Shown here: one piece after another, positions 4,812 to 52,536 of the stretch
Layout: every line of letters begins with the position of its first letter
Numbering within the stretch: position 1 is the stretch's first letter
Assembly (NCBI RefSeq): GCF_002884445.1
Contig: NZ_KZ614144.1
Coordinates: forward strand, 1,158,202-1,222,201
Direction: 5' to 3'
DNA from: Paenibacillus castaneae
GTDB lineage: Bacteria > Bacillota > Bacilli > Paenibacillales > Paenibacillaceae
DNA length: 64,000 bases
Notes under the pieces: generated by a model
Seen by the model: the letters and a program-made list of their open reading frames with translations, nothing else
What the model was told of the DNA's origin: nothing
Database searches by the model: none
Position numbers and translations under genes: made by a program

Positions 4812-4932
4812 AATTGTACCGTGATAATGATTTAACTTATGTTTTGTGCACCATAGGGCTGCCCAATATGCATGGGTTGCTAGTGCAGAAGGAGGCGGGA
4901 TTAGCGGGAGCTTTTGCAGTTAGCAAGCTGCT

Positions 4933-13307: not shown

Positions 13308-13410
13308 TTCACTTTCTCGTCACATCTATTAGACGTATAGAAAAATCCATCCCGTAAATAGAAAAGTCCATTCCGATCATTTTTATTTAGTGTAACATAA
13401 TAAATGTTGC

Positions 13411-13425
13411 TGATAATGGTTATCA
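13411..13425. promoter_or_regulatory. Fur box 1 upstream of yclN
   Basis: TGATAATGGTTATCA is a 7-1-7 inverted repeat with one mismatch to the Bacillus Fur consensus TGATAATnATTATCA. It lies about 108 bases before the yclN start. Confidence 0.85.
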
Positions 13426-13470
13426 ATCGCAAGCGAATAACCATGAACAGCGTATTTTTTTAACTATTAT

Positions 13471-13485
13471 TGAGAATGATTATCT
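13471..13485. promoter_or_regulatory. Fur box 2 upstream of yclN
   Basis: TGAGAATGATTATCT matches the 7-1-7 Fur consensus with two differences. It lies 34 bases before the yclN start and 60 bases after box 1. Confidence 0.75.
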
Positions 13486-13518
13486 CTGATAATATTTATG
13501 ACGATTCGAGGAATTAGG

Positions 13519-18887: not shown

Positions 18888-18893
18888 GGGAAC

Positions 18894-35617: not shown

Positions 35618-37024
35618 ATGAAAAAGCTTGCAAGCACTTTCATTTTCATGTTGGCTTTAATTATGCTTGTTTCTGCATGCTCAAGCGGAGGCGGAACAAA
35701 CAAAGGAGCGACTAACGCACCTGCCAATACAGACGGAAACAAGGCTACAACTGAACCTGTAGCTGAAGCCACAGAACCAGCCGATGAAACAGCGAAATCA
35801 ACGATCGATCCATCTATTTCCGGCGAGGTAACGTTCTGGACATTCCTTGATAACAAGGAGAAGGATGCTGCTCTTCAAAAAGCTTTTAATGAAGTGTATC
35901 CCAACATTAAGCTGAAAACGATCTTCGTGCCATTCGGCGATTTGCACGATAAGCTGCAAACAACGCTTGCTGCCGGTAAAGGCGCACCGGACGTAGCCCT
36001 TGTTGAGCAAGGCCAATTCCCTCGCTACAGCACAGGCAATGTGCTAGAGGATTTGCTTCAGCCGCAGTATGACGCTGGCAAATACCAAAGCCTAGTATCT
36101 GAGTATAACTGGAACCGTTGGTCTTCCATTGACGGCACTAAATTGCTCGGTATGCCTTGGGATGTTACACCAGCTGTAACTTACTATCGCGCAGATATTT
36201 TTGAAGAGCTTGGTTTGCCTTCCGATCCCGCTGAGCTAGGCGAATACATTCAAGAGCCAGAAAACTTCTTCACGCTAGCACAAACGTTGAAAGCAAACGG
36301 CAAGTATTCGATGGAATGGCGTGATTCACCCGTTCACTGGCTTGGCGATTCGTATGGTTACTATGACAGCGAAATGAATTGGGTTCGCAACACAGATGAG
36401 TTCGTGAAGTTTTTGGATATTTCGAAACAAGTCAATCAGTTGAAGATTGCTCCGCATGACAGCATCTACAGCGATAAAGGCAAGCAGCGCGTGAAAAAAG
36501 GCGAGTCTCCAATGTATGTAGCAGGAACTTACGGCGCACGTGATCTGGAAGCAAACTTCCCGGATCAAAAAGGTAAATGGAGAGCAACAACTATGCCATT
36601 TGGTCTTAACGTCGGCATGGGTGGATCAACATTCGTTATACCAGCACAAAGCAGCAACAAAGATGCAGCTTGGGCATTCGTTGAATTCATTACGACGACC
36701 GAAGCGGCTTGGAAGCTTTGGATTGAACAATCCGTACAACCGGATTACAAAAACATAACTAGCCAAGGCTGGTATCTTGCTCATACCAATCCATACCTCG
36801 GCGATCAAGAGGATTACAAGTTCTACGATGAGCTTGCAGGCTTGCTTCCAGTTAGACGCTACACTCGTCTTGACGGCATGGCTTGGCCGCTATGGGTTGA
36901 AGGCGTGCTCGCGGCGCTCGATAAAAACATCGATTCGAAAACAGCTATTCAACAAACGCAAGAAAATATTGAGAACAAGCTGAAGGCTGAAAAGGATAAA
37001 TTGATTAAAGAGCTTCAGCAATAG
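35618..37024 (+). CDS. Sugar ABC transporter solute-binding lipoprotein (family 1)
   Basis: A 468-residue lipoprotein with lipobox LVSAC, a Gly/Thr/Ala-rich linker to about residue 70, and a family 1 fold starting at GEVTFWTFLDNKEKDAALQK. It should capture an oligosaccharide for one of the two permease pairs of this locus. A strong terminator separates it from the following genes, so it may be expressed at a higher level than the rest. The C-terminal TRLDGMAWPLWVEGV region is of the ligand-binding type. Confidence 0.9.
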   Translation: MKKLASTFIFMLALIMLVSACSSGGGTNKGATNAPANTDGNKATTEPVAEATEPADETAKSTIDPSISGEVTFWTFLDNKEKDAALQKAFNEVYPNIKLKTIFVPFGDLHDKLQTTLAAGKGAPDVALVEQGQFPRYSTGNVLEDLLQPQYDAGKYQSLVSEYNWNRWSSIDGTKLLGMPWDVTPAVTYYRADIFEELGLPSDPAELGEYIQEPENFFTLAQTLKANGKYSMEWRDSPVHWLGDSYGYYDSEMNWVRNTDEFVKFLDISKQVNQLKIAPHDSIYSDKGKQRVKKGESPMYVAGTYGARDLEANFPDQKGKWRATTMPFGLNVGMGGSTFVIPAQSSNKDAAWAFVEFITTTEAAWKLWIEQSVQPDYKNITSQGWYLAHTNPYLGDQEDYKFYDELAGLLPVRRYTRLDGMAWPLWVEGVLAALDKNIDSKTAIQQTQENIENKLKAEKDKLIKELQQ

Positions 37025-37054
37025 CTCTGTCGGTGAACTATTGTCTTTGTTGTC

Positions 37055-37095
37055 CGAATCATCCTTCCCTGGAAGGATGATTCGGTTCTTTTAAA
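37055..37095 (+). terminator. Terminator between lipoprotein SBP and the giant SBP gene
   Basis: CCGAATCATCCTT pairs with AAGGATGATTCGG across CCCTGG, followed by TTCTTTT. Read-through or an internal promoter must serve the next genes. Confidence 0.82.
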
Positions 37096-37163
37096 TCATA
37101 ATGCCTTTATTTCAATGCGAAACGTATGCCGTTTACGCTAGTATGGCAAGGGGGTGCTCCTTG

Positions 37164-40163
37164 GTGATCCGTTGGTTAAGCAAGTATAAGGTAACATTGG
37201 TTGTCATTGCCGCGTTGGTTTGTTTCTTATTGTGGTGGAACAATTCAAGGGGCTACAACGATGATGCAATGGCTGGAATTGTGCTGGATACGGGAATTGA
37301 TGAAACGTCTATTTTGGAAGGTGAAGACGCCGGCAATAAGCTCGAGCCGTCTTTTAATAAATATGTGAACAGCTGGAATGAGCAGGGTGCAGCTGATTCA
37401 GCAGGCTTTAACATTACGATTGCTTCAAATGACTACACTGCAATAAGTGCAGCGGGTACTCGCATTGAATCAGGGCTCGGTGATCAACCGGGTAAAGCTT
37501 TGGCTCTTATTGATGAGGACAGCTGGGCTGATTATACCTTTGAAGTGCCGCAGGACGGCTACTATCAAATAGGAATGAGCTACTTTGCAATGGAGGGCAA
37601 GCGCTCGTCCATCGTTCGCGGCGTTCAAATTGACGGGGCATATCCTTTCTTTCAGGCGAAGAAGCTGGAATTTCAGCGGATGTGGAAGGAAGCTGGAGAG
37701 CCTTGGTTTGATAATCAAGGAAATGAATTTAATCCGCGCAGGGAAGAGACAACAGGTTGGCAATATCGTGAATTCCGTGATTCCGAAGGCAAGGTATATG
37801 AGCCTTTCCGTTTTTATTTAACGAAGGGCAAGCATACGCTGCGCCTTCAAGCCGTACGTGAGCCTGCTGCAGTTGGCGAGATTCATATTTATTCCCCAGT
37901 TCATGTGCCTACATATTCAGAAGTGCTCAGCACGTATGAGCAGCAGGGCTATAAGAAAGTGGAAAATCAGCTCATTAAGGTGCAAGCCGAGCTGTCGACC
38001 TTGAAGTCCGATCCAACACTTAAGCGTATCGAGGACAGGGAGCCGTTAACGGAACCTTTCAAGAAGGATTCGATCGTGCTTAATACGTTTGGCGGGGCAA
38101 GCTGGCGTACAGGCGGGCAGTGGGCGGAGTGGGAAGCGGATGTGCCGGAGAGCGGCTTATACGAAATCGGAGCCCGTTATGGGCAATGGTTTCTGAACGG
38201 GATTCCGGTACAGCGTACCGTTACGATTGACGGGAAGCTTCCTTTCAAAGAAATGAACGAAATTTCTTTCCCGTACAAGGCTGAATTCCAAATTTCCAAA
38301 TTTGGTCAAGACAGCGAGAACAAAGAGCCGTTTCTCTACTATTTAGAGAAGGGCAAGCATACGATTCGCATGGAGGTACAGGTTGGCGCGCTTGGGGGAA
38401 TGCTCGAGACGGTAACCGATACAGTTCGCAAAATGTCCTATTTAGGCCGCGAGGTCATTCAGGTAACGGGAACGAATCCCGATCCGAACGGCGACTGGCG
38501 ATTAGAGCAAAATATCGCGAATCTCGTGCCGCGCCTTCAATTGATGGCGAAAAGCTTGGATGAAACGATTAAAGGGCTGTATGCGCTTGGCGTTGAGAAA
38601 GGCAGCTCAGAGGTAAGCACGCTGTTCGAAGCGCGTGACGTGCTTCTAAGCATGTCCAATGACACCATGACCATACCAGGCCGGATGATGCAGTTTACCG
38701 ATTTGCAGGCTTCGCTTGGCACATGGGTAAGCAGCCTTAGCAAGCAGAGCCTTCTGCTCGATTATTTGATTATCAAATCACCGGACACAGCTTGGCCCAA
38801 ACCGGCTGCTGGCTGGCTGGCAAGAACAGGTACGATGATTTACGACTTTGGGAGCTCCTTCACCAAAAATTACGGCGGAATCGGCAACGTCTATGAAGAC
38901 GAGCAGGTACTGGACGTATGGGTGGCAAGAGGCCGCGATTGGGTCGATATTATTAAACAAATGATCGACGAGGATTTCACGACGGAAACGGGCATTAAAG
39001 TGAATGTGAACGTGATCCCGGCTCAGCAGATGCAGGTGCTGCTGCTTGCAAGCACAGCGGGACTCGCGCCGGACGTGGCGCTTGGCGTCGAGGGCGAGAT
39101 TCCGATTGATTACGCGGTGCGTAACGGGCTAGTCAATTTGGAGGAGTACGATGATTACGAAGAGGTAGCAGCTCGTTTCAGACCGGGGGCGCTTATCCCT
39201 TACAAGTATAACGGCGGCAGCTACGCGATACCGGAAAATCAAAAATTTAATATGCTCTTCTACCGGAAAGATATTATGCAGCAATTAGGGATTACCGAGG
39301 ATCAAATACCAGATACGTGGCAGGAAGTGATGGACTTAATTCCAATCCTGCAGCAGAACGGCATGGACTTCTTCTATCCGCATGCTCCGAATAATCCGGG
39401 GGTAGCCATTAATGAATTTGCTCCGTTCCTGTTTCAACAGAACAGCGAGTTTTACCGTGAAAACGGGAAATTCTCAAATTTGGATTCACCAGAGGCGATG
39501 AAGGCGTTCAAGCTGTGGACGGGTTTATTTACAAATTTCAAGATTTCAAAGCAGGCTGATTTCTATAACCGTTTCCGTTCGGGCGAAATGCCGATCGGCG
39601 TCGCGGATTACTCCACGTACGTACTTCTCTCTACGGCAGCCCCGGAGCTAACGGGCTGGTGGGGAATGAAGCCAATGCCGGGCATTAAGCAGGAGGATGG
39701 CCGAATTAATCGCTCGACGGGCGGATTGGCACAGACGGGCATGATATTCAAGGATACCGACATGAAGCAACAATCATGGGAATTTTTGAAATGGTGGACT
39801 AGTGCCGATACGCAGGAAAGATTCGGTTCTGAGCTGGAAGCATTGCTCGGTGTAGAGGCGCGCTGGAATACGGCGAATATTGAAGCATTGAAGCGTATGC
39901 CGTGGCAAACCGCGGATATCAATGCCATCCTGGAGCAATGGGAATGGTTCAAAGAGCGCGAGGTCGTCATCGGAGGTTACTACACGACAAGGCATATCGC
40001 GAATATTTGGAACGAAATCGTCTTGAACGGTAAAATACCGCGCGAAGCGGTGGAGCAGGGCGTTAAGGAAATCGATAAGGAATTGCGCAAAAAACGCGAG
40101 GAATTTGGTCTTAATGAAGTAGCAGCTAAGAAAGAAGCGTCAAAAGGAGGCGATAGTCCGTGA
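37164..40163 (+). CDS. Membrane-anchored fusion: two carbohydrate-binding-like modules plus solute-binding domain
   Basis: About 999 residues. The N-terminus has a single hydrophobic helix (VTLVVIAALVCFLLWW) without lipobox, so it is probably membrane-anchored. Two similar beta-sandwich modules follow (about residues 60-260 and 290-440). Both show the CBM35-like pattern: a DGYYQIGMSY / SGLYEIGARY strand, a VQIDGAYPF / VTIDGKLPF strand and a YLTKGKHTLRLQ / YLEKGKHTIRME strand. After a helical region, a complete family 1 solute-binding domain occupies residues about 595-985 (VLDVWVARGRDWVDIIK onward). The start is GTG 37164 or TTG 37161; AAGGGGG precedes both. It overlaps the next permease gene by four bases. 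Fusion of glycan-binding modules to a transporter receptor is unusual. Confidence 0.82.
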   Translation: MIRWLSKYKVTLVVIAALVCFLLWWNNSRGYNDDAMAGIVLDTGIDETSILEGEDAGNKLEPSFNKYVNSWNEQGAADSAGFNITIASNDYTAISAAGTRIESGLGDQPGKALALIDEDSWADYTFEVPQDGYYQIGMSYFAMEGKRSSIVRGVQIDGAYPFFQAKKLEFQRMWKEAGEPWFDNQGNEFNPRREETTGWQYREFRDSEGKVYEPFRFYLTKGKHTLRLQAVREPAAVGEIHIYSPVHVPTYSEVLSTYEQQGYKKVENQLIKVQAELSTLKSDPTLKRIEDREPLTEPFKKDSIVLNTFGGASWRTGGQWAEWEADVPESGLYEIGARYGQWFLNGIPVQRTVTIDGKLPFKEMNEISFPYKAEFQISKFGQDSENKEPFLYYLEKGKHTIRMEVQVGALGGMLETVTDTVRKMSYLGREVIQVTGTNPDPNGDWRLEQNIANLVPRLQLMAKSLDETIKGLYALGVEKGSSEVSTLFEARDVLLSMSNDTMTIPGRMMQFTDLQASLGTWVSSLSKQSLLLDYLIIKSPDTAWPKPAAGWLARTGTMIYDFGSSFTKNYGGIGNVYEDEQVLDVWVARGRDWVDIIKQMIDEDFTTETGIKVNVNVIPAQQMQVLLLASTAGLAPDVALGVEGEIPIDYAVRNGLVNLEEYDDYEEVAARFRPGALIPYKYNGGSYAIPENQKFNMLFYRKDIMQQLGITEDQIPDTWQEVMDLIPILQQNGMDFFYPHAPNNPGVAINEFAPFLFQQNSEFYRENGKFSNLDSPEAMKAFKLWTGLFTNFKISKQADFYNRFRSGEMPIGVADYSTYVLLSTAAPELTGWWGMKPMPGIKQEDGRINRSTGGLAQTGMIFKDTDMKQQSWEFLKWWTSADTQERFGSELEALLGVEARWNTANIEALKRMPWQTADINAILEQWEWFKEREVVIGGYYTTRHIANIWNEIVLNGKIPREAVEQGVKEIDKELRKKREEFGLNEVAAKKEASKGGDSP

Positions 40164-41122
40164 TAACCAAAACTGATCCGGCGGCAGCAACGGCTATTCC
40201 AGCGGAGCGCCTCCGCAACCCAAGCAAGCTATCGCTGTTATGGCAGGAAGTGAAGAGACACAAGGTATCCTACCTGTTTCTCGCCCCATTCCTCATTCTG
40301 TTCACGCTGTTTACGATCGTACCGGTCGTTACTTCGGTTGTGCTGAGCTTCACCTATTACAATATTTTAGAAGCGCCGAAATTTATTGGGCTATCCAATT
40401 ACAGGCTCTTGTTCGTCGATGACGATATCTTTCTGAAAGCAATCGGCATCACGCTAAAATTCGCTTTCATAACAGGCCCGGTCGGCTATGCTATGGCTTT
40501 TATCTTAGCATGGCTGATCAGCCAAATTCCGCAGAAATACCGTTTTTTCTATACGCTTTGTTATTACACGCCTTCGATTACGAGCGCAACAGCTATGTCG
40601 GTTGTGTGGCTTTATCTGTTCGCGGGTGATCGGAAGGGCTTGCTGAACTATTTCGCAGCAAAGCTGGGCATCATCGATGAGCCCTATTTATTTCTGCAAA
40701 ATATTAATTCCATTGTTCCGGTTATCATTATCGTATCGCTTTGGATGTCTATGGGCGTGGGCTTTCTTGCCTTTCTTGCCGGATTGCAGAACGTTCCTAA
40801 GGATCTCTATGAAGCGGGAGAAATTGACGGTATTAAATATAGATGGCAGCAGCTTATTTATATTACAGTACCTTCAGTTAAGCCGCAGCTGTTGTTTGGC
40901 GCCGTCCTGCAGGTTGTCTCCTCGCTTACGGTATTCGATGTCAGCGTGCAGCTTGTTGGCTTGCCGAGTCCGCTCTATGCGGGCCATACGATTCTGACAC
41001 ATTTATTTGATTATGCGTTTATTAAATTCGAGATGGGTTATGCCGCGGCAATCGCCGTTGTTCTGTTCGTCATGATGATCGGACTCAATCGTCTCATATT
41101 CAAATGGTTAGGAAAGGACTGA
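40160..41122 (+). CDS. Carbohydrate ABC transporter permease (first pair, UgpA/MalF-like)
   Basis: A 320-residue permease with six hydrophobic segments and the EAA loop EAGEIDGIKYRWQQLIYITV. It starts at GTG inside the stop of the fused binding protein, with AGGAGGCG upstream, so the two are translationally coupled. It forms a channel with the next gene product. No ATPase gene is linked. Confidence 0.9.
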   Translation: MITKTDPAAATAIPAERLRNPSKLSLLWQEVKRHKVSYLFLAPFLILFTLFTIVPVVTSVVLSFTYYNILEAPKFIGLSNYRLLFVDDDIFLKAIGITLKFAFITGPVGYAMAFILAWLISQIPQKYRFFYTLCYYTPSITSATAMSVVWLYLFAGDRKGLLNYFAAKLGIIDEPYLFLQNINSIVPVIIIVSLWMSMGVGFLAFLAGLQNVPKDLYEAGEIDGIKYRWQQLIYITVPSVKPQLLFGAVLQVVSSLTVFDVSVQLVGLPSPLYAGHTILTHLFDYAFIKFEMGYAAAIAVVLFVMMIGLNRLIFKWLGKD

Positions 41123-41128
41123 ACCGAT

Positions 41129-41992
41129 ATGACTGGCTTAGTGAAAGGCAAGAAAGTAGATTGGGGCGGTTTTTTCCTTTATCTATTTCTGACGCTGTTC
41201 GGTCTTCTGATGCTGGCTCCGCTCGTTTACATGGTGTCAACTGCTTTTAAACCGATAAGCGAACTGTTCCTATTTCCGCCGCGCTTTTTTGTGATGAATC
41301 CGACTTTTCTTAATTTTCGCGATTTGCTGCTGATAACAGGAACGACTAGCGTTCCGTTCTCCAGGTTTATATTCAACAGCCTGCTGATCAGCTCCTGTAT
41401 TGTCGGCTTTGGCATTATCGTATCCGCAATGGCAGCTTATCCGCTGGCGAAGCATAATATGCCATTTCGTAGTGCGATTTTCAACATGGTCGTACTCGCA
41501 ATTATGTTCTCGCCGCTCGTTGTACAAATTCCGCAATATTTGCTCATTAGCAAAATCGGGCTTATTAACACGTATTGGGCTATGATCTTGCCTTATTTGG
41601 CAGCTCCCGTCGGCATGTTTCTCATGACGCAGTTTTTGCGCCAAATTCCAGATGCGCTGCTGGAAGCAGCGCGGATAGACGGCGCTTCCGAATGGAAGGT
41701 GTTCTGGGTCGTTGTCATACCGATGCTGAAGCCGGCTATTGCTACATTTGCATTATTCAGCTTTATATCTGCCTGGAATGATCCATACCCAGCGATGGTA
41801 TATACGACCGATCAAGATATGAAATCATTGCCGCTCGCCATACAAACGTTAAGCGGCGGTTATGGCGTTGTTGCGCGTGTCGGCACCTTGGCCGCAGCCA
41901 GCTTATTGATGATTGTGCCGACGATAATCGTCTTTATCGTAACGCAGCGCTTGGTGCTGCAAACAATGGCGCATTCAGGTCTGAAAGAGTAG
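41129..41992 (+). CDS. Carbohydrate ABC transporter permease (first pair, MalG-like)
   Basis: A 287-residue permease with six hydrophobic segments and the EAA loop EAARIDGASEWKVFWVVVIP. It lies six bases after its partner and 13 bases before the NHL-propeller gene, inside one polycistronic run. Confidence 0.9.
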   Translation: MTGLVKGKKVDWGGFFLYLFLTLFGLLMLAPLVYMVSTAFKPISELFLFPPRFFVMNPTFLNFRDLLLITGTTSVPFSRFIFNSLLISSCIVGFGIIVSAMAAYPLAKHNMPFRSAIFNMVVLAIMFSPLVVQIPQYLLISKIGLINTYWAMILPYLAAPVGMFLMTQFLRQIPDALLEAARIDGASEWKVFWVVVIPMLKPAIATFALFSFISAWNDPYPAMVYTTDQDMKSLPLAIQTLSGGYGVVARVGTLAAASLLMIVPTIIVFIVTQRLVLQTMAHSGLKE

Positions 41993-42005
41993 GAGGACAA
42001 CCGGG

Positions 42006-43505
42006 ATGAAGCAGGTTTCGAAATTCCGATTCGTTGTCAGTACAGCAATTGCTTTACTGATGTTAGTTACAGCTCTACCGGTACAAACGTACGCAGCTTC
42101 TCCTTATGAAGGGTACACGCGGAACAAGCTGGGTGATGATGTTCATTCGATTAACGGCTACATATATGAGAGTTCTATTGACGGTTATGACTTATCATCG
42201 GGCCCCTTCAGTGCGCCAGAGGATGTCTTTCTCGCTGATGACGGTACGATTTATATCGTTGATACGGGTAACAGCCGAATCGTGCATTTAAATAAGAAGC
42301 ATGAGCTGCTGGGCATTATCGGTGATGAGGAAGGCGACGGCAAGCTTTACGAGCCTAAGGGCGTATTCGTAAAGCAGGATGGGACCATCTATGTTGCCGA
42401 CACGAAAAATCAGCGAATTGCTATTTTTGATCAAAAGGGCAAATTTCAGAATCAGTTCGGCAAGCCCGAGAATCCGCTTCTCGGAGCAACCTTCTCCTAT
42501 TCTCCGTCGAAGCTGCTTGTCGACAAGCGCAACTATATGTTCGTCGTGAGCGACGGCAATACGCAAGGGCTTATTCAAATTGATCCGAACGGTCAGTTTA
42601 AAGGCTTCTATGGTGCGAACCATGTCGGCTTCAGCTGGAGCAGATTGATTAATAAGCTGGTAGCAACCGATGAACAGAAGGCGAAGCTTAGCGTTGTAAA
42701 GCCGCTTGAATTTTCGAATGCAGTACAGGATGAAGAGGGCTTTATCTATACTTCGACGCTTGGAACGGAGATGAACCAATTGAAGCGGCTCTCGCCAGTT
42801 GGCGTGGATACGCTTAATATTGTTCCGCGCAGGTATGGCGGCCGATTCGATAACGGGCCCTTCTCAGTCCCTTCATTTCTTGACCTTGCCGTAGATAAAG
42901 ACGGCGTGATTACAGCGCTTGATCTGCAGTCCAGCAAAGTGTACCAGTACGATAAGCTCGGTAATTTCTTGTTCGTATTCGGCGGCCTTGGCGACCAGAA
43001 TGGATTATTTATAACCCCTTCAAGCCTTGCGCAGTCACCTGACGGCACTGTGTTTGTAGTGGATAAAGGGCGCAATCGCGTTGATTTATTCCGTACGACT
43101 CCTTTTGCTGAATTGGTGCATGATGCATCAAGACTATTCGTAGACGGCCGCTACAAAGAGGCTGAGGGATTGTGGAATGAAGTGCTGCATTTGAATGGGA
43201 ACTTTGATCTGGCTTACCTCGCAATTGGGAAATCGCTGTTCAAGGCTGAGAATTATAAGGATGCGATGACCTATTTCGAGCTGGCAAGATCACGCTATGA
43301 TTATTCCATTGCTTTCAAAGAGTATCGCAAGGAATACATCAGAGAGAACTTTGCTTGGATATGCCTTATTATTGTTGTCATTATTATCGCTCTTCGCTAT
43401 ATCCTTCCTTTCTTATGGAGAAGAGTGCGGATCATGCTGTCAGCTCGCAGATTGGCTGGAGCGGCTCATATAAAGGGAGGGGTGCCCCATGATCGCAACC
43501 TTTAG
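42006..43505 (+). CDS. Exported NHL-propeller/TPR protein with C-terminal membrane anchor
   Basis: A 499-residue protein. A signal peptide (ends TYAAS near residue 32) is followed by NHL-type propeller repeats (residues about 55-370) such as EDVFLADDGTIYIVDTGNSR and KGVFVKQDGTIYVADTKNQR. Two TPR-like helix pairs follow (375-440), then one membrane helix (about 452-472) and a short basic cytoplasmic tail. So the propeller and TPR face outward, tethered to the membrane. NHL propellers often bind proteins or glycans, so this may be a docking platform. It overlaps the YIP1 gene by 17 bases, hinting at a stoichiometric complex. Confidence 0.85.
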   Translation: MKQVSKFRFVVSTAIALLMLVTALPVQTYAASPYEGYTRNKLGDDVHSINGYIYESSIDGYDLSSGPFSAPEDVFLADDGTIYIVDTGNSRIVHLNKKHELLGIIGDEEGDGKLYEPKGVFVKQDGTIYVADTKNQRIAIFDQKGKFQNQFGKPENPLLGATFSYSPSKLLVDKRNYMFVVSDGNTQGLIQIDPNGQFKGFYGANHVGFSWSRLINKLVATDEQKAKLSVVKPLEFSNAVQDEEGFIYTSTLGTEMNQLKRLSPVGVDTLNIVPRRYGGRFDNGPFSVPSFLDLAVDKDGVITALDLQSSKVYQYDKLGNFLFVFGGLGDQNGLFITPSSLAQSPDGTVFVVDKGRNRVDLFRTTPFAELVHDASRLFVDGRYKEAEGLWNEVLHLNGNFDLAYLAIGKSLFKAENYKDAMTYFELARSRYDYSIAFKEYRKEYIRENFAWICLIIVVIIIALRYILPFLWRRVRIMLSARRLAGAAHIKGGVPHDRNL

Positions 43506-44106
43506 ATTGATGCGACAGGTAATTGTTCACCCGATAGATTTCTTCCATGACATCCAAGAGCCAGGACGCGTTAAATGGCTGCAGGCGCTGTTCATTGTCG
43601 GATTAGCCTACATCGCGAAGATGGTTGCGATCTTAATAACAGGCTATGCTTTTCAAACGAGAGAACCATATGAAATTTCGTTTCTGAATGAGTTTATATG
43701 GATCGTGGTACCGTTATTCACTTGGACGGTATCTAACTGGGCGGTTAGCGCGATTCTTGATGGCGAAGGGAAATTCAAGGAAGTATTCGTCGGAAGTGCA
43801 TTTGCACTTGTGCCTTATGCGATATTCATTGTACCTATTACGCTATTAACGAATATTTTGGCGCTGGATGAAAGCTCCATGTACACCTTTCTTATTCATT
43901 TCACCCTCTTCTGGGTAGGCTGGCTCCTGCTGCTGAAAGTAAGAATTGTACATGACTTTGAGCTTGTGAAGATGGTGTGGATTACCTTGCTCAGCATCGT
44001 AGGCATATTGATCATTTGGTTTGTGGGCATATTGCTGTTCGGATTGATCAATCAGCTCATTAATTTTGTAGTCGACATGTTCAAAGAAGTAAACTTCCGA
44101 AGGTAG
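43489..44106 (+). CDS. YIP1-family integral membrane protein
   Basis: A 205-residue protein with five predicted membrane helices; the N-terminal VIVHPIDFFHDIQEPGRVKW is typical for bacterial YIP1-domain proteins. Bacterial function is unknown. AAAGGGAGGGG precedes the ATG. Its start lies within the NHL/TPR gene and its stop is nine bases before the DUF5696 gene start, so all three are likely made together. Confidence 0.82.
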   Translation: MIATFRLMRQVIVHPIDFFHDIQEPGRVKWLQALFIVGLAYIAKMVAILITGYAFQTREPYEISFLNEFIWIVVPLFTWTVSNWAVSAILDGEGKFKEVFVGSAFALVPYAIFIVPITLLTNILALDESSMYTFLIHFTLFWVGWLLLLKVRIVHDFELVKMVWITLLSIVGILIIWFVGILLFGLINQLINFVVDMFKEVNFRR

Positions 44107-44115
44107 GTGGACGAG

Positions 44116-46467
44116 ATGAGGAAACAACGGAAATGGCTTATTATCGCGGCATTGCTGCTCGTTGTCAGCATATTCCCTCACTTCGGGACCGCGGAAGGCA
44201 GCATCCAGGTGCAGGCAGTGGAGGATACGAGTGTCAGCTCGCCAGAAAGCAGTGATGATTCAGCTGTAGAAGCGGTTGCAGATGCTGTGGAAGCGGAGCC
44301 GGTAGAAGAGTCAGCTGCGACAGATACGGAGGAACCCGCGGCCGAAGAAGAAGTGAAGCTATACGATGTATCTGCGGTTAAGGAAATTGCCGCTAATGAT
44401 AGCTACATTATGTATATCGATGAGAAAACAGGAAACATTCGTCTAGTAGATAAGAAGACGAAGAAAGAATGGCTCGGTACGCCGCAGCTGCCGCGTACGA
44501 CGATGCCTAACAACAAGAAATATATGGACGCTGCCGTTCATGTGAAGTATACCGAGGGCTCGGATACCGTTCAGACTTATTTGACGAAGGAAAAAGAAAA
44601 TAAGCTGAAAATCGAGAAAATTGAGAATGGCGCAAAAGTCATTTTCCAATTCATCAAAGAGCAGCTGGAATTTGCCATTGAGTACCGCTTGCTTGCGGAT
44701 GGCTTCGAATTAACGATTCCAGAAAGCTCCATAAAGGAAACCGGTAAAGCGAAATTTATTAGCATTGAACCGCTTCCTTTCTGGAACGCAGCTGCGGATA
44801 CAGACGATGGGGCGATCTTCCTGCCGGACGGCTCGGGAGCGCTCATGAAGTATAAAGCGACTCATCCGCAATACTTCGCAGGTTATTCCGAAATGATTTA
44901 TGGCTCGGATCCTGCGTATGTTACGCAGTCCAATATCATTCTCGATGAGAAGTGGAGACAGCGTCTTGCTCCGAAGGAGAAGATTGCGCTTCCGGTATTC
45001 GGAAATTATCGCAACGGAATAGGATCGCTGGGTATCGTTACCAAAGGCCAATATGATGCGAAAATAAACGGAACCCCATCAGGCATTCGCGCTATTTCTT
45101 ATTATCGAACATCAACTGAATTCGTTTACCGTTGGAATGATGTTATTTTTATCGGCACATCCGGTGAAATTCCATTCTTCCAGGGAGATTGGATCAAGGG
45201 AGATCGTCAGTCGCGCTATATGCTGCTTCAGGAGGATCAAGCTGATTATGTAGGAATGGCGAAGGCATATGGGAAATACCTTCAAACCGTGGAAGGCATT
45301 AAGCCGGTTGAACAGTCCGGCGTTCCAGTTAAAGTAAAGCTTCTTGGCGGTATTCTGCGTGACGAGGTGCTTGGACAAACGTTTATCTCGATGACTACAT
45401 TTAAGCAGGCACAAGAAATCATCGATGCTTTCCAGAATAAAGGAATCAAGAATCTGGAGCTTACGTTCTCTGGATGGTCAGAGGGCGGCTTGTACGGGGA
45501 TCAGCCTGACCATTTCCCAGTGGAGAAGAAGCTTGGCGGTCAAAAGGCGCTGAAGGAGCTTGCTGCCTATGCGTCCAATAAAGGTGTATCGCTTTATTTG
45601 GAAGCCAATTATGCACGAGCATTCTCCAAAAGCGACGGCATGAAAAAAAGCAAAGACGCTATTCGCGGCATGGACCATGAAGTCGCTGTAAGCAATGAAT
45701 ATTACATCGGAAGCAGATGGAATGATGACAGCCGTATATTTTACTGGATGAAACCGGAGCGTGTTATTAACAAGCATTTGAATAAAGAATTGAAGGACTA
45801 CGCGAAGCTCGGTATTTCAGGTGTTCATCTCGCGTACTGGGGCGATACGCTTTACTCTGACATCGATAAGAAATCGATAACTTCTCGCGGTGAAACGGCT
45901 AATGCGTGGGTGAAGGCTGCCGACGCGGTACGCGAGGCTGTCGGCGGTGCATCCATCGATTATGGATTTGGCTATATGTTAGGCCATATAGATGGAATAA
46001 GCCAAGCGCCAATGGATTCCAGCCATTTCATCTACAATGATGAGACGGTTCCATTCTATCAAATTGCGCTTCACGGCCTGCTGCCTTATACAGCCGCTTC
46101 TATTAATCTTCGGGATGACGCTCGGAACGAGCTGCTGCGTATGGTTGAGTACGGCGCGCTGCCAAGTCTTGAACTGACCTATGAGCCAACCTCGAAGCTT
46201 CAGAGAACAATGGAAGACCGCTTGTGGAGCTCGCAATATACGACATGGATTGATGAAGCTGTTCAGCAATACGGGGAGCTTGAACCTATTTATACGGCCA
46301 TTTCGAATCAAGCCATTACGGATCATGAAGCGCTCGGCGATAAGCTATTCCGCACGACCTATGCGAATGGAACAAAAGTTATTGTCAATTACGGCGCAGC
46401 AGCAGCGACTGTTGACGGCATATCTGTACCGGCAGCTGGTTTCGCCATGCAGAACGGAGGGAAATGA
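44116..46467 (+). CDS. Exported DUF5696-type protein, possible glycoside hydrolase
   Basis: About 783 residues. The signal peptide (first 27 residues) lacks an obvious lipobox. A very acidic Glu/Ala/Ser linker runs to about residue 85, then a large domain I assign to DUF5696 from memory of the family. Its first half is beta-rich (residues 90-350); the second half (about 375-720) alternates strands and helices like a TIM barrel, with NLELTFSGWSEGG, VSLYLEANYARAF and ISGVHLAYWGDTL at strand ends where glycosidases keep catalytic acids. The last 40 residues form short beta strands. ATG 44116 is chosen over GTG 44107 because GGTAGGTGG then serves as ribosome site. Catalysis is inferred. Confidence 0.75.
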   Translation: MRKQRKWLIIAALLLVVSIFPHFGTAEGSIQVQAVEDTSVSSPESSDDSAVEAVADAVEAEPVEESAATDTEEPAAEEEVKLYDVSAVKEIAANDSYIMYIDEKTGNIRLVDKKTKKEWLGTPQLPRTTMPNNKKYMDAAVHVKYTEGSDTVQTYLTKEKENKLKIEKIENGAKVIFQFIKEQLEFAIEYRLLADGFELTIPESSIKETGKAKFISIEPLPFWNAAADTDDGAIFLPDGSGALMKYKATHPQYFAGYSEMIYGSDPAYVTQSNIILDEKWRQRLAPKEKIALPVFGNYRNGIGSLGIVTKGQYDAKINGTPSGIRAISYYRTSTEFVYRWNDVIFIGTSGEIPFFQGDWIKGDRQSRYMLLQEDQADYVGMAKAYGKYLQTVEGIKPVEQSGVPVKVKLLGGILRDEVLGQTFISMTTFKQAQEIIDAFQNKGIKNLELTFSGWSEGGLYGDQPDHFPVEKKLGGQKALKELAAYASNKGVSLYLEANYARAFSKSDGMKKSKDAIRGMDHEVAVSNEYYIGSRWNDDSRIFYWMKPERVINKHLNKELKDYAKLGISGVHLAYWGDTLYSDIDKKSITSRGETANAWVKAADAVREAVGGASIDYGFGYMLGHIDGISQAPMDSSHFIYNDETVPFYQIALHGLLPYTAASINLRDDARNELLRMVEYGALPSLELTYEPTSKLQRTMEDRLWSSQYTTWIDEAVQQYGELEPIYTAISNQAITDHEALGDKLFRTTYANGTKVIVNYGAAAATVDGISVPAAGFAMQNGGK

Positions 46468-46469
46468 AC

Positions 46470-47348
46470 ATGGGCAAAAAATTTAGGCTGTCGATGAGAA
46501 GCCGCCACATCCTTGAAGGCTATTCGTTCATTTCCATATGGATCGCGGGCTTCTTGATGTTCATGCTCGTTCCGCTCAGTATGTCGCTCTACTATTCGCT
46601 GAATAATCTAGAAGTTTCAAAGGATGGACTGAAGGCCGTGTATACGGGGTTGACGCATTATAGAGCCGCTTTCACAACGGATATCGATTTTGTCCCTCGT
46701 TTGCAAAGCACTTTAACGACGATGCTGACCCAAGTACCGCTAATCCTTATTTTTGCAATGCTGAGTGCATTGCTGCTAAATCGTAATTTTCGAGGACGTA
46801 TTTTGTTCAGGGGCATATTCTTTCTGCCCGTTATTATCGCATCCGGTGCGATTCTGCGTGAATTGCTGGAGCAAGGCGCGACGAAGCTGCCGATTTTTGC
46901 TCAATATGATTTATTTGAGAAGCTGAATGGCCTCATTCCAGGCGATTTCCTTGAGAATCTTCTTATTTACGCAGATTCCTTAACATTGGTTATGTGGGAC
47001 TCAGGAGTACAAATTCTAATTTTTATTGCAGGCTTGCAGACGATCTCACCCGCGCTTTATGAAGCGGCAAGATGTGATGGAGCGACGAAATGGGAAAGCT
47101 TCTGGAAAATTACGTTTCCGATGATTATGCCGATGGTTTTCGTGAATACGCTCTTTAGTATCGTTAATTCCTTCACGAAGACGGATAACAAAATTATGGA
47201 TTACATTAATAACACGGCATTTAGGGCAAATGATTATGCTTATGGTTCTGCATTAGGCTGGATCTATTTTATCGTCATATCGATTGTGCTTGCGATAGTC
47301 TTCTTCATCTTCCGCAGAAGCTTATCAGCGACCGAAGGAAGGGGGTAG
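46470..47348 (+). CDS. Carbohydrate ABC transporter permease (second pair, first subunit)
   Basis: A permease of about 292 residues with six hydrophobic segments and the EAA loop EAARCDGATKWESFWKITFP. ATG 46470 has CGGAGGGA seven bases upstream; ATG 46464 would overlap the previous stop with too little spacing. It lies directly behind the DUF5696 gene and pairs with the next gene. Confidence 0.88.
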   Translation: MGKKFRLSMRSRHILEGYSFISIWIAGFLMFMLVPLSMSLYYSLNNLEVSKDGLKAVYTGLTHYRAAFTTDIDFVPRLQSTLTTMLTQVPLILIFAMLSALLLNRNFRGRILFRGIFFLPVIIASGAILRELLEQGATKLPIFAQYDLFEKLNGLIPGDFLENLLIYADSLTLVMWDSGVQILIFIAGLQTISPALYEAARCDGATKWESFWKITFPMIMPMVFVNTLFSIVNSFTKTDNKIMDYINNTAFRANDYAYGSALGWIYFIVISIVLAIVFFIFRRSLSATEGRG

Positions 47349-47353
47349 AGGCT

Positions 47354-48337
47354 ATGAATTCAACAAGTGGGGTGCAGCAAAAATATAGCGAGCTGCAAGG
47401 TAAAGCGGAAGCGGTCTGGAAAGTGACGTGGATTAAGCGCGGACGGGGCATCGTTGGGACCCTATTCTTTTATTTGGTCATATTGAGCTTGGCATTTGTA
47501 TTTGTTTACCCGCTGCTATACATGGTATCCAAATCGCTGATGCGGCCCGAAGATGTAGCGGATGCGACGATTCAGTGGATTCCGAAGCAGTTCAGCTTAC
47601 GAAATTATGCGATTGCGATGGATGAAATCAAATTTTGGCCGGGGCTGCTGAACAGTATCATTATTTCATTCGGCAGCGCCATACTTCAGGTCGTGAGCTG
47701 CTCTATAGTCGGATACGGCTTCGCGCGCTTTCGTTTCCCGGGGCAAGCCTTTTTTCTAGCCTTGGTTGTATTTACATTTCTAGTTCCGCCACAAACCTTT
47801 GTCGTGCCATTATTCAAGTTTTTCCTTGATATGGGCTGGGTAAATACACATCTGCCCTTTATCGTTCCGGCTTTACTCGGCCATGGCCTGAAAGGCTCTT
47901 TGTTCGTTCTAATCTTTATCCAGTTCTACCGTACGCTTCCAAACGTGTTGGAGGAAGCAGCAAGAATTGACGGCGCGGGCGCTTTCCGCACGTACTGGAT
48001 GATCATGTTTCCGCTCGCTAAGCCTGCGATGCTGGTCGTCTTCTTGTTTTCGGTCGTCTGGCATTGGAATGATTTGTTTGAGCCGAATTTATACTTGCTC
48101 GTTCCGGAATATTTCAATCTTGCTCAAAATATGGCGTTCTTCAATGGGAATGCAAATTTGGATATTCAGCAAGCCGCCAGTTCGGTATCAACAGGCACGC
48201 TTGGGATGGCTCCGACGCTCCAAAACCAGGTTATGGCAGGCGTTATGCTTACGATCTTGCCAATTTTAATTCTCTATATGTTCACGCAGCGTTACTTCGT
48301 AGAGAGTGTAGAGCGCTCGGGTATTGCGGGTGAGTAG
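47354..48337 (+). CDS. Carbohydrate ABC transporter permease (second pair, second subunit)
   Basis: A 327-residue permease with six hydrophobic segments, a 35-residue cytoplasmic N-terminal extension and the EAA loop EAARIDGAGAFRTYWMIMFP. A second permease pair in one operon implies two importers or a larger mixed complex; only two binding-protein domains are present in the locus, one per pair. Confidence 0.9.
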   Translation: MNSTSGVQQKYSELQGKAEAVWKVTWIKRGRGIVGTLFFYLVILSLAFVFVYPLLYMVSKSLMRPEDVADATIQWIPKQFSLRNYAIAMDEIKFWPGLLNSIIISFGSAILQVVSCSIVGYGFARFRFPGQAFFLALVVFTFLVPPQTFVVPLFKFFLDMGWVNTHLPFIVPALLGHGLKGSLFVLIFIQFYRTLPNVLEEAARIDGAGAFRTYWMIMFPLAKPAMLVVFLFSVVWHWNDLFEPNLYLLVPEYFNLAQNMAFFNGNANLDIQQAASSVSTGTLGMAPTLQNQVMAGVMLTILPILILYMFTQRYFVESVERSGIAGE

Positions 48338-48375
48338 AAGAAGCTGGAGCTGTTCTTCTAAGAAAGCGGTGCAGA

Positions 48376-51348
48376 ATGAAAAATAAACAGCGATGGATGA
48401 TATGCTCCATACTGCTGCTTGGTGCGGTTGCGGCAGCTATTTGGCTGCTGCTTCCCTTAGCATCGGAGCGGCAAAAGGAACAAAAAGCAGAAACCGTTCC
48501 AGCCTTTAACGATTTCTTGGTACTGCGCTATACCTTCGACATGGATGCTGCAGAAGGTGCGGCTGTCAGTGAAGCGGAAGATCAATCGGGTCATGATAAT
48601 GGGGCGTTATTGAAAGGCGGAAAGCTTGTTCCCGAGGGACGTTTCGGCGGCGGATTCGAGCTGGATGGCATAAACGCATATGCTGAATTGCCGACAGCGG
48701 TGTTGAACGGGTTGGAAGAGCTGACGTTATCCGCATGGGTGAATGTGAATGAACTTCGTACATGGCAGCGTATATTTGATTTCGGCAATGGAACAGATCG
48801 GTATTTATTTCTAACCCCAATGTCGGAAACCGGCAAAGTAAAAATAGCAATCAAAAACGGGGGCGGCGAGCAAATCATTGATGCTGCCACCGAATTGCCT
48901 GTAGACAGCTGGACACATATTGCTTTCACATGGACGGGATCTTCAGGCGTTCTATACTTGAACGGCCGCGAGGCTGCTCGAAATGACGAGTTGTCTATTA
49001 AACCAAGCGATATGGCAGGCACGACTAGTAATTTCATTGGGAAATCACAGTTCGACGTTGATCCTTATCTGTCTGGACAAGTGGATGAGGTGCGGCTTTA
49101 TGGCAAAGCTTTGGCAGCAAATGAGGTTGCTGATGTGCTGACTGATGGGATGAATGACGAGGAAATCGTCGCTTTCACGTCAGAATGGCTGGAGCTAGGG
49201 GGCAGCGAGCGTGTTGTCTCAGCGCTGACATTGCCGAGCACAGGTCCGGGAGGTTCTTCTGTCGCTTGGTCATCGGATAACGCTGGTACGGTTGATGACA
49301 AGGGTACTGTTACGAGACCGGCAAGCGGTGCAGGTGACCAAGAGGTCATATTAACGGCCAAGATAAGCAAAGGAAAAGCATTTGACGAGAAAAAAATTCC
49401 GCTGCGGGTGTGGGAAGAAGGCGCTGCTGATTATGCTATTTCGATTGGAGCAGATCAGCTTGGTGCACCTGTAAGCCATACATTATTCGGCATTTTCTTC
49501 GAGGACATCAATTTTGCAGGTGATGGCGGAGTGTACGCCGAGCTGGTCGAGAACCGTTCCTTCGAATTCTCGCAATCACTCTGGAACTGGGCGAGGCAAT
49601 CTGCCGGCGATGGTGACGGGACGATTGAGGTTCGTAATGAAAGGCCGCTTAATGCTAATAATCCGCATTATTTAACGATGCAGGTGAACGCGCCGGGAGC
49701 AGACGATGCGTTCGCTGTAGCGAATAGCGGTTTTGGTGGAATGGCGCTGAAGCAAGGCGAAAGCTATGATTTCTCTCTTTATGCCAGAAGCGGCAGTGCG
49801 GTAGTTCCTAAGCTGCATATGTATTTGGAGGATGATGGCGGCCATCGTATTGGTGAAGCTGAGATAGCCGGTATTGGAGCGGAATTTAGCAAGCATTCTA
49901 TGACGATAACGCCATCAGCAGATGCGTTGAACGGGCGGCTTGTATTAAGCGCATCAGGAGTAGGTGAGCTTGATGTCGATATGATTTCGTTGTTCCCGCA
50001 CAAAACCTGGATGAACAGACCAGGCGGCTTGCGCGCCGATCTGGTTCAGATGCTCGCAGATTTGAATCCCGCTTTCATAAGGTTTCCCGGCGGAAGTATT
50101 GTCGGAGGAGACGGAATCGACAACCGCTATAACTGGAAGGATTCCATTGGAGATGCTGCACAGAGGAAGACAAATGAGAATTTATGGGGCGGCGGCGCTC
50201 TAACGACGCCTTATTATCAAAGTTACGGACTTGGCTTTCATGAATATTTTCAGTTAAGCGAAGACTTGGGGGCGGAACCGCTGCCTGTTGTGAACGCTGG
50301 AATGGGCGATCAATTCCGCCACTCTGATACTGCGCCTATAGATGAGCTAGCCAGCTATATTCAGGATGCGCTTGATTTGATTGAGTATGCGAACGGCTCT
50401 ATCGATAGCGAATGGGGAGCGAAGCGGGCGAAGAATGGACATCTTGCGCCGTTTGGTCTACATTACCTGGCGATTGGCAATGAGCATTGGGGAGCTGATT
50501 ACTTCATCAGATTCCAACAGTTTCAGGAGGCTATTAAGAAACAGTATCCCGATATTGAGCTTATTGCCTCAGCAGGTCCATCTCCAGCGGGTCCGATCTT
50601 CGAGGAAGCGTGGCGCTGGCAGCAGTCGCAGCCAACCGATATTGTAGATGAGCATTATTATATGAATCCGGATTGGTTTCTGTCTAATTCGAATCGCTAT
50701 GATTCCTATGACCGCAGCGGTCCTAAAGTATTTGTCGGCGAATATGCGGCGCATAATGGAAGCCGGTCGAATAATTTCGGTTCAGCACTAGCTGAAGCGG
50801 CATTTATGATTGGGCTAGAGCGTAATTCCGATGTTGTGGCGATGGCTTCTTATGCTCCGCTATTCGGCAAGGAAGGATATTCGCAATGGGCGCCGGATTT
50901 GATTTGGTTCAATAATTCGCAAGTATTTGGCACTCCGAATTATGCTGTGCAGCAGATGTTCGGGAACCATGTTGCAACGAGCGTTTTGCCAGCAACCGTC
51001 GTTTTGCGTAATGGTCAGTCCTACGAGGCAGGGCGCGGCGGCATACAGGCTGAGGAGCCGTTCTATTTCATTGCGGGCAAGGATGAGCAGAGCGGTGATT
51101 GGATTCTGAAAGCAGTCAATGCCGCCGGGTACGATGTGCATGTGGATGTTCAACTGGCGGGGGTGAAGGCAGCTCTGCAAGGAACAAAGCTATCGCTTTA
51201 TTCCGATGATTTGAATGCAGAAAATTCATTTGCAGAGCCTTTGGCTGTGAAGCCAGTGGAGCAAGCGGTAGATGGGCTGACTAATGAATTCAAGCTTGAG
51301 CTGCCAAAGAAATCGATTACGATACTAAGGCTGAAAGCCAAGCCATAA
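48376..51348 (+). CDS. LamG-GH51 alpha-L-arabinofuranosidase, membrane-anchored or secreted
   Basis: A 990-residue exoenzyme. Order: signal or anchor helix (residues 6-24), LamG/concanavalin-like domain (about 45-250, with LTLSAWVNVNE and GQVDEVRLYGKAL), an atypical Ig-like domain (about 260-345, with VAWSSDNAG), then a GH51 module from about 350. In the GH51 part, SHTLFGIFFEDINFAGDGG opens the domain, the acid/base Glu is in IGNEHW (residue about 703) and the nucleophile Glu in VGEYAAH (about 789). GH51 enzymes remove alpha-L-arabinofuranosyl branches. It closes the ten-gene locus and gives the best clue to its substrate: arabinan, arabinogalactan or arabinoxylan. Confidence 0.92.
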   Translation: MKNKQRWMICSILLLGAVAAAIWLLLPLASERQKEQKAETVPAFNDFLVLRYTFDMDAAEGAAVSEAEDQSGHDNGALLKGGKLVPEGRFGGGFELDGINAYAELPTAVLNGLEELTLSAWVNVNELRTWQRIFDFGNGTDRYLFLTPMSETGKVKIAIKNGGGEQIIDAATELPVDSWTHIAFTWTGSSGVLYLNGREAARNDELSIKPSDMAGTTSNFIGKSQFDVDPYLSGQVDEVRLYGKALAANEVADVLTDGMNDEEIVAFTSEWLELGGSERVVSALTLPSTGPGGSSVAWSSDNAGTVDDKGTVTRPASGAGDQEVILTAKISKGKAFDEKKIPLRVWEEGAADYAISIGADQLGAPVSHTLFGIFFEDINFAGDGGVYAELVENRSFEFSQSLWNWARQSAGDGDGTIEVRNERPLNANNPHYLTMQVNAPGADDAFAVANSGFGGMALKQGESYDFSLYARSGSAVVPKLHMYLEDDGGHRIGEAEIAGIGAEFSKHSMTITPSADALNGRLVLSASGVGELDVDMISLFPHKTWMNRPGGLRADLVQMLADLNPAFIRFPGGSIVGGDGIDNRYNWKDSIGDAAQRKTNENLWGGGALTTPYYQSYGLGFHEYFQLSEDLGAEPLPVVNAGMGDQFRHSDTAPIDELASYIQDALDLIEYANGSIDSEWGAKRAKNGHLAPFGLHYLAIGNEHWGADYFIRFQQFQEAIKKQYPDIELIASAGPSPAGPIFEEAWRWQQSQPTDIVDEHYYMNPDWFLSNSNRYDSYDRSGPKVFVGEYAAHNGSRSNNFGSALAEAAFMIGLERNSDVVAMASYAPLFGKEGYSQWAPDLIWFNNSQVFGTPNYAVQQMFGNHVATSVLPATVVLRNGQSYEAGRGGIQAEEPFYFIAGKDEQSGDWILKAVNAAGYDVHVDVQLAGVKAALQGTKLSLYSDDLNAENSFAEPLAVKPVEQAVDGLTNEFKLELPKKSITILRLKAKP

Positions 51349-51353
51349 AGGGG

Positions 51354-51384
51354 AAGAGTCATACGGCTTATCCGTAAGACTCTA
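51354..51384. terminator. Hairpin between convergent GH51 and ArsR-type genes
   Basis: AGAGTCATACGG pairs with CCGTAAGACTCT with one mismatch. No T-run follows, so termination strength is uncertain. Confidence 0.55.
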
Positions 51385-52432: not shown

Positions 52433-52536
52433 TAATTGCCAAATGAAATTAATAAGGTCTGCCGTTTGGAAATAGATGATCGGAATGAATAGGAAAACGA
52501 TAAATATACAATTTTATTGGAGGAATGAGAGAGTAC

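Follow-up and report, generated by a model that had tools for sequence, protein, structure and literature searches.

The 64,000-nucleotide stretch of Paenibacillus castaneae DNA analysed here (the window, to which all unlabelled positions refer) contains, within 35618-51348, one copy of a fixed eight-gene cassette that is reused ten times in the genome of this bacterium. In order, the cassette encodes SBP2, a fusion protein ending in a solute-binding protein (SBP) domain; permeases A and B; a membrane protein with NHL and TPR repeats (NHL/TPR); a YIP1-domain membrane protein; a DUF5696 protein; and permeases C and D. It is accompanied by genes that vary from copy to copy, here called cargo. 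We read the cassette as a modular surface glycan-capture system with two importers of the CUT1 type and a shared ATPase, and place the probability of this reading at about 0.55. A preliminary description of the same DNA had counted all ten genes of the interval as one system; the core comprises eight of them, and the outermost two, encoding the lipoprotein SBP1 and a LamG-GH51 enzyme (GH, glycoside hydrolase), are variable cargo.

Conservation and copy number of the core

Searches of the 6.3-Mb P. castaneae genome returned ten matches each for DUF5696, Yip1 and NHL/TPR, which coincide in ten loci, and all 10 Yip1 matches fall inside these loci. The core order SBP2-A-B-NHL/TPR-YIP1-DUF5696-C-D is kept in all nine of the other copies. 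Across 60 genomes (this one and 59 relatives), NHL/TPR lies within 5 kb of DUF5696 in 148 of the 150 matches listed, and the converse also holds for 148 of 150, three of the four exceptions coming from one 630-contig draft; the counts refer to 150 listed matches per family, the NHL/TPR search having found more and the DUF5696 table summing to 152.

Among named relatives, the complete core order was found in 69 of the 71 loci with enough DNA (80 named loci in all), drawn from Paenibacillus, Cohnella, Gorillibacterium, Gracilibacillus, Lederbergia, Halalkalibacter, Alkalicoccobacillus, Caldicoprobacter, Lachnospiraceae, Butyrivibrio and others; these are the best 80 of 369 relatives, chosen by DUF5696 motifs, all with Bacillota names and mostly Paenibacillaceae, and they are not independent. 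In a sample of the phylum, DUF5696 occurs in 37 of 398 genomes and 20 of 267 genera, and 17 of its 20 loci offered enough DNA: 12 follow the standard order, three hold all parts with the second block of genes before the first, and two lack the full first block. Order here means core matches along one strand, between which other genes may intervene, such as an extra SBP gene in locus L016; it was read from six-frame profile matches, the neighbour-gene calls being longest open reading frames, which are error-prone in GC-rich loci. The preliminary description had named a lack of conserved gene order in relatives as one outcome that would overturn it; the extra genes clearly co-occur in them, with their order kept.

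Because these flips and losses separate the two blocks, SBP2-A-B is defined as unit I and NHL/TPR-YIP1-DUF5696-C-D as unit II, the latter of which looks like the irreducible part. DUF5696 matches outnumber those of SBP2 in five of eight clostridial genomes (11:6, 11:4, 21:9, 10:4 and 8:4, with 3:3, 4:4 and 1:1 in the other three), some counts being inflated by genes split in draft contigs. Clostridial genomes of 2.2-3.0 Mb (G099, G121, G141, G194 and G224) hold 8 to 21 DUF5696 matches and fewer of SBP2, as if several copies of unit II shared one unit I; eight to eleven matches in genomes of 2.2-2.4 Mb suggest a central role in lifestyle.

Cargo genes and likely substrates

Within the P. castaneae genome, the enzymes beside the cassette differ by copy: GH51 and GH43 in the window; two GH26 with GH2 (mannan); GH30, GH10 and two GH43 (xylan); two GH76 (alpha-mannan) with a GntR/LacI-type regulator; GH16 with GH2; two GH32 (fructan); and PF10091, which we take to be GH144-type, with a GH35/42 enzyme. 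No glycan is assignable to L016, which has additional SBPs and an ATPase of its own, or to L017, which has an acyltransferase; among clostridial copies, pectate lyase and GH28 also occur. In L017 (G000:C1:2288400-2308300, G000 being the P. castaneae genome), an acyltransferase_3 gene at 12742-13929 of the locus is the first downstream gene instead of a glycoside hydrolase, and the SBP2 is the one most like the window's within the genome.

Core and cargo evidently travel together. On the DUF5696 tree, xylan (19) and mannan (11) labels, spread over Paenibacillaceae and Bacillaceae, are separated by a single label change, against a mean of about 9 for shuffled labels, none of 500 shuffles being as low; one change is still found at looser thresholds (31 xylan and 12 mannan labels, clostridial loci added), and at three thresholds overall. 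Labels were given by score cut-offs, with the cargo of two P. castaneae loci as reference; the first thresholds left 77 of 107 loci without a label and the loosest 64 of 107, and near-copies favour clustering of this kind. A contig labelled Bacillus subtilis DE0224 (L148), a label that may be wrong, has a cassette of the xylan type, and its DUF5696 groups as sister to the Lederbergia galactosidilytica protein.

In the window, the last gene of the interval (48376-51348, plus strand) encodes a lineage-specific LamG-CBM-GH51 enzyme (CBM, carbohydrate-binding module) with an N-terminal transmembrane segment or signal; it matches PF22848 (4e-60), PF06964 and PF13385, its Pfam domains being GH51 (ASD1_dom and Alpha-L-AF_C), Laminin_G_3 and a weak CBM_4_9. 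It was rejected as a core part, being intact in none of the five closest orthologous cassettes, where one 132-amino-acid remnant was found. A GH43 gene further downstream (52525-53505, plus strand; PF04616, 1.6e-78), encoding a probable arabinofuranosidase, is kept in all five of these orthologues and in five of 13 window-type relatives. Of the eight more distant window-type cassettes, six have GH43 or GH51 by Pfam, one was unscanned, and one, with two genes scanned, showed neither enzyme in them. In sister cassettes, one GH43 narrowly misses the NCBIfam AbnB cut-off (744.5 bits against 750) and one GH51 passes that of ArfA (821.5 against 625); the window GH43 is close to 3akf, deposited as a secreted alpha-L-arabinofuranosidase, and also to entries named beta-xylosidase. 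From these sequence relationships, the glycan of the window copy is most likely alpha-1,5-arabinan. The arabinose-containing glycan proposed in the preliminary description thus fits this copy and does not extend to the system as a whole, and a ten-gene arabinose-specific system is rejected, since cargo differs in the other loci.

The DUF5696 protein

DUF5696 (44107-46467, plus strand; PF18952, 1.5e-185, 618.7 bits), which begins with a transmembrane segment or signal, had been listed as a part of unknown role. It is not a blank: the predicted model has a GH129-like glycosidase fold. The AlphaFold model of the window protein (40 sequences; pLDDT 84.5, pTM 0.88) finds by Foldseek DagB (5opq, E 5.1e-33) and NagBb as best matches, followed by GH101 and GH36. 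In VIA-align, it aligns with NagBb (5wzn) at Z 31.9 over 566 residues (root-mean-square deviation 4.3) and with DagB (5opq) at Z 31.3, with 14-17% identity; among the families in the fold lists, the next are galactosaminidase (21.1), GH36 (20.0) and, through the barrel only, amylases (19.8). The DUF5696 alignment profile matches the same PDB chains at E 5.5e-8, the single stretches of DagB being weak, and comparison with a Paenibacillus GH129 alignment gives 97.5% probability and E 8.7e-12 over 444 columns.

The catalytic residues of that family tell against a canonical GH129, a candidate that was rejected because the fold matches while the Pfam family and the catalytic pair do not: PF11308, the GH129 family, was absent from the window protein up to E 1. 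In the Paenibacillus GH129 L205, we assign the invariant Asp385 and Glu429 to a NagBb-type catalytic pair, the glutamate presumably corresponding to the Glu acid/base of NagBb; the pair would map near residues 577 and 618 of the window protein. Over 121 DUF5696 sequences, Asp occupies 577 in 46% (weighted) and Asp or Glu occupies 618 in about 41%, and acids occur within two positions of both sites in 43 of 121 (26% weighted). The window protein has Tyr577 and Asp618, as do nine of 13 window-type relatives, and so does not present the GH129 nucleophile and acid/base. All 11 mannan-type proteins combine Asp577 with Ser, Ala or Thr at 618, and all 19 xylan-type proteins have Asp577, with Glu (9), Asn (6), Asp (3) or Ser (1) at 618. 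Because residue 618 drifts within one cargo class, the pair has likely been lost, and on the predicted model DUF5696 is probably a glycosidase fold deprived of its family's catalytic pair.

The best-surviving alternative, a minority possibility in our estimate, is that DUF5696 works as a glycosidase at the cell surface, representing a new family within the GH129/GH101 group and removing side chains ahead of import with catalytic residues placed unlike those of GH129. It draws on the GH129-like fold, on the intact Asp577 of the xylan and mannan types, and on D585, D645, E646 and E681, which are jointly intact in 97 of 121 sequences, so that DUF5696 could be an enzyme by another pair. The published precedent points the same way: in the part of the DagB study available to us, Asp486 of DagB (Asp435 of NagBb) is the sole catalytic residue that the two enzymes have in common (PMC5698469). 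Set against this alternative are the variation of the acid/base column inside one cargo class and the window type, which has no nucleophile; set against loss of catalysis are the four intact acids and the fact that the mapping of the pair rests on a low-identity profile alignment. As a separate observation, the genome holds a truncated GH129 (PF11308) fragment, L197, at G000:C1:5716624-5716914, and longer GH129 genes occur in some congeners.

Transporter parts

All ten genes of the interval lie on the plus strand, as had been described, according to their open reading frames and Pfam domains, and their spacing is as tight as claimed: the successive gaps are 76, -4, 6, 13, -17, 0, -4, 5 and 38 bases, all except the final one below 20 after the first gene. 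SBP1 (35618-37024, plus strand; PF01547, 8.4e-29) is a cargo-linked CUT1 solute-binding lipoprotein with a lipobox-like VSAC at residue 18. SBP2 (37101-40163, plus strand; 1020 amino acids) consists of an N-terminal transmembrane segment (26-44), a part resembling CBM35 and Golvesin_C, a helical stretch that resembles designed coiled coils in profile searches, and a C-terminal SBP domain (PF01547 at 616-906); a pattern search found no lipobox in it. The "CBM-like" label given earlier to its N-terminal part holds weakly: at E up to 0.1, CBM_35 is matched by 7 of 21 homologous parts (best 2.2e-5) and Golvesin_C by all of them (best 5.1e-6), the window protein itself scores 7.7e-4 against Golvesin_C and 0.05 against CBM_6, both below the Pfam cut-off, and a profile of the part touches PDB 5x7g, a cycloisomaltooligosaccharide glucanotransferase, at E 7.8e-4. 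Of the 108 SBP_bac_1 matches of the genome, the ten SBP2 genes alone lie in reading frames longer than 900 amino acids. No clear Shine-Dalgarno-like sequence accompanies the called start of SBP2, which lies 15 bases past a hairpin, and an in-frame start at Met15 is possible (37101-37146).

Permeases A (40160-41122; PF00528, 9.5e-13) and B (41129-41992; 3.6e-18) in unit I, and C (46464-47348; 6.8e-9) and D (47354-48337; 6.1e-10) in unit II, are all on the plus strand. An EAA-type coupling-loop motif was found by pattern in B, C and D, and in A by eye as EAGEIDG, which the pattern had missed; the window locus shows the SBP and two permeases with EAA-type loops expected of a CUT1 importer. No ATPase was found by Pfam among the ten genes. 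That CUT1 importers normally need one, as the preliminary description said, stands; its absence from the locus calls for no special explanation, because sharing is the rule in a genome with 108 SBP_bac_1 matches and two MalK-type ATPases, of which one adjoins the L016 cassette and the other lies at a separate chromosomal site. A cassette-specific ATPase was rejected, since of 109 mapped loci only L016 has a high-scoring MalK-type gene (874 bits; next best 108).

In L016 (G000:C1:4080600-4100500), the MalK-type ATPase gene lies directly upstream of SBP2, an SBP gene separates DUF5696 from permease C, and a second one, with a weak NgcE-like NCBIfam match, lies downstream (locus features at 18480-19655, 7542-8882 and 4132-5604). 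L016:4132-5604 and L013:305-1717 gave no Pfam family by hmmscan at E 0.001, yet score above the SBP_bac_1 cut-off in the genome search. A further SBP_bac_1 gene of the window lies outside the cassette, at 58709-59596 on the plus strand.

The NHL/TPR and YIP1 proteins

The NHL/TPR protein (42006-43505, plus strand; NHL 1.3e-15, TPR weak) has a signal-like N-terminus and one transmembrane segment near the C-terminus (segments at 4-22 and 452-470), from which propeller and TPR are expected outside; from sequence, both are probably extracellular. It is followed by a small multi-spanning YIP1-domain protein (43489-44106, plus strand; PF04893, 1.4e-12). The two form a single polypeptide in 28 of 105 locus readings, among which L098, L102 and L105 repeat the contigs of L081, L085 and L084, and in five of the ten P. 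castaneae loci. A model of the fused homologue L112 (14 sequences; pLDDT 80.5, pTM 0.68) shows a propeller, helical repeats, a long helix at the expected transmembrane segment and then the YIP1 helices; by Foldseek it matches NHL propellers, TRIM71 among them, and the 50 matches listed are all propellers, so that they bear on the propeller part only. Of the membrane-tethered complex proposed in the preliminary description, the tethered assembly is favoured by co-inheritance and by this fusion, whereas the physical complex itself would follow by extrapolation.

Co-evolution of the parts

Over 93 loci, correlations between the distance matrices of nine parts run from 0.86 to 0.97; among the ten P. 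castaneae paralogues alone, where species phylogeny is removed, they run from 0.66 to 0.88. The partial correlations, given for 93 loci and for the 70 loci at which SBP1 could be added, are highest for NHL-DUF5696 (0.58/0.55), A-B (0.54/0.55) and C-D (0.49/0.47), followed by SBP2-B (0.43/0.41), the CBM part with DUF5696 (0.36/0.44), YIP1-C (0.29/0.28) and YIP1-B (0.23, 93 loci). SBP1 (70 loci) is linked most strongly to D (0.41; 0.31-0.48 in 70% subsamples), with -0.29 for A and 0.00 for C. A wiring of SBP2 to A/B, of SBP1 to C/D, and of DUF5696 to NHL and the CBM part, as these values suggest, matches what the model assumes.

Proposed mechanism and alternatives

In the glycan-capture reading, the CBM-like arm of SBP2 and DUF5696 would hold polysaccharide or large fragments outside the membrane, and the NHL propeller and TPR, anchored through YIP1, would tie DUF5696 to the permeases. 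Secreted cargo enzymes would cut the glycan chain; SBP2 would feed permeases A/B and SBP1 would feed C/D; one shared MsmX/MalK-type ATPase, encoded elsewhere, would power both importers; and the remaining cargo enzymes would complete the breakdown inside the cell.

Several points weigh against this reading. Co-inheritance marks a functional unit and not a physical complex, and unit I does not accompany unit II one to one in every case, as the clostridial excess of DUF5696 over SBP2 indicates. Distance correlations share phylogeny, and the comparison has no unrelated-operon control; for the cargo-linked SBP1, correlations with the core range from 0.84 (A) to 0.97 (D) over 70 loci, as strong as those between core parts, so that raw values cannot separate the core from a cargo SBP. 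Negative partial values occur for A-DUF5696 (-0.26) and SBP2-YIP1 (-0.22), and NHL-YIP1, often one polypeptide, reaches only 0.07 (93 loci) or 0.18 (70 loci); such a low value despite fusion means that the method misses real contacts and that an absent signal means little.

Contacts between proteins are commonly made through TPR and propeller domains, and in eukaryotes YIP1 proteins have a link to membrane trafficking. Both facts, together with the partial correlations that connect YIP1 to permease C (0.29) and permease B (0.23), would suit an unlikely alternative in which NHL/TPR-YIP1 serves the permeases as a chaperone, an assembly factor or a sensor coupled to transport and is no part of the working complex; the strongest partial correlation of NHL is with DUF5696, however, and not with a permease, and a sensor role is disfavoured by the lack of any kinase or signalling domain in the eight window core proteins (Pfam; the flanks had no systematic scan for signalling genes). 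Similarly improbable is the view that two ordinary CUT1 importers for one glycan merely share an operon with accessory genes that form no joint machine. In its favour, the two pairs resemble ordinary BPD_transp_1 permeases, the SBPs co-vary each with the pair assigned to it, and unit I is absent or placed after unit II in some clostridial loci; near-complete linkage across families, the NHL/TPR-YIP1 fusion and the ten-fold reuse of the whole cassette with differing cargo speak against it.

Regulation and flanking genes

A terminator- or attenuator-like hairpin (37054-37085, plus strand; 14-bp stem, T-rich tail, -22.2 kcal/mol) in the gap between SBP1 and SBP2 parts SBP1 from the remaining cassette genes; the region has four terminator-like sites, against 2.0 expected. 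A hairpin was found by the identical criterion in 19 of 69 other loci, and in those copies would be consistent with an excess of SBP1. No cre-like operator was found upstream of SBP1 in a scan allowing one mismatch at most, which gave three hits in the window against 4.0 expected by chance. Promoter scans were uninformative (3 found against 4.2 expected; 10 against 8.4), and downstream terminator-like sites are at chance level (5 against 5.5).

Downstream, on the minus strand, lies a gene (51382-52296; PF01022, 3.1e-11) for an ArsR-type helix-turn-helix protein, a possible regulator of the locus, which adjoins the cassette in six of 13 window-type relatives, including all five of the closest. 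Since this regulator and GH43 adjoin the cassette in all five closest orthologues, the locus probably extends to 53505. The ArsR-type protein has 304 amino acids, and its long C-terminal part of 230 amino acids has no Pfam match up to E 0.01.

Comparison with known systems

By the definition of Gram-positive polysaccharide utilization loci (gpPULs; Sheridan et al. 2016), as it stands in the sections of that article consulted, the locus is a gpPUL with a new fixed core (PMC5320581). It combines polysaccharide-degrading enzymes (GH51 and GH43), transport (two SBPs and four BPD_transp_1 permeases) and a putative regulator (the ArsR-type gene, kept in 5/5 closest orthologues), and it shares with gpPULs the clustering of enzyme, carbohydrate transporter and regulator, the common ABC importers and the substrate-specific copies. 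In contrast to gpPULs, which in those sections are defined without a fixed core beyond a transport system, eight genes are constant in the locus, among them those for NHL/TPR, YIP1, a GH129-like protein and both permease pairs (PMC5320581).

The selfish CUT1 system Xua of R. cellulolyticum likewise has an SBP, two permeases and an ATPase encoded elsewhere, and imports large oligosaccharides; as far as the consulted part of its description goes, it has one SBP and one permease pair, whereas the locus has two pairs, an SBP fused to a CBM-like part and anchored in the membrane, and three additional core proteins (PMC9675976). The GH129-type enzymes NagBb (5wzn) and DagB (5opq), the latter described in the accessible text as a beta-sandwich, a TIM barrel and a C-terminal Ig-like domain (PMC5698469), match the DUF5696 model over its whole length; DUF5696 differs from them in being membrane-linked, in lying inside an importer operon and in not conserving the catalytic pair.

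Conceptually, the cassette resembles SusC/SusD loci in joining a fixed capture-and-import core to interchangeable enzymes, with ABC permeases here instead of a TonB-dependent transporter; Pfam scans of the ten genes and eight flanking genes gave no match to SusC or SusD. The parallel to SusCD drawn in the preliminary description would therefore be one of function, by analogy. No description of this core was found in searches of the PMC open-access literature for DUF5696, or for YIP1 or the NHL repeat with Paenibacillus transport or polysaccharide use, the broader results being judged by title and opening of the abstract; the sole pairing of "YIP1 family protein" with Paenibacillus concerned bacteriocins.

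Implications

We know of no general model comparable to SusCD for how Gram-positive bacteria couple surface polysaccharide digestion to uptake. The fixed eight-gene core found in Paenibacillus, Cohnella, several Bacillaceae and clostridia offers a concrete basis for such a model, with cargo that hints at the glycan. Tentatively, and at somewhat less than even odds, Bacillota may own a dedicated, reusable capture-and-import complex, the single-membrane counterpart of SusCD, in which DUF5696 as a pseudo-glycosidase, together with an SBP arm bearing a CBM, passes polysaccharide fragments to twin ABC importers by way of an NHL-TPR-YIP1 scaffold, and in which genomes specialise by swapping the cargo of ten or more copies. 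DUF5696 gains a predicted fold, the bacterial Yip1 and NHL/TPR membrane proteins gain a setting, and the substrates of many unannotated loci could be guessed from the clade of their cassette; if the pseudo-enzyme reading is true, DUF5696 would be a surface glycan-binding protein built from a glycosidase fold.

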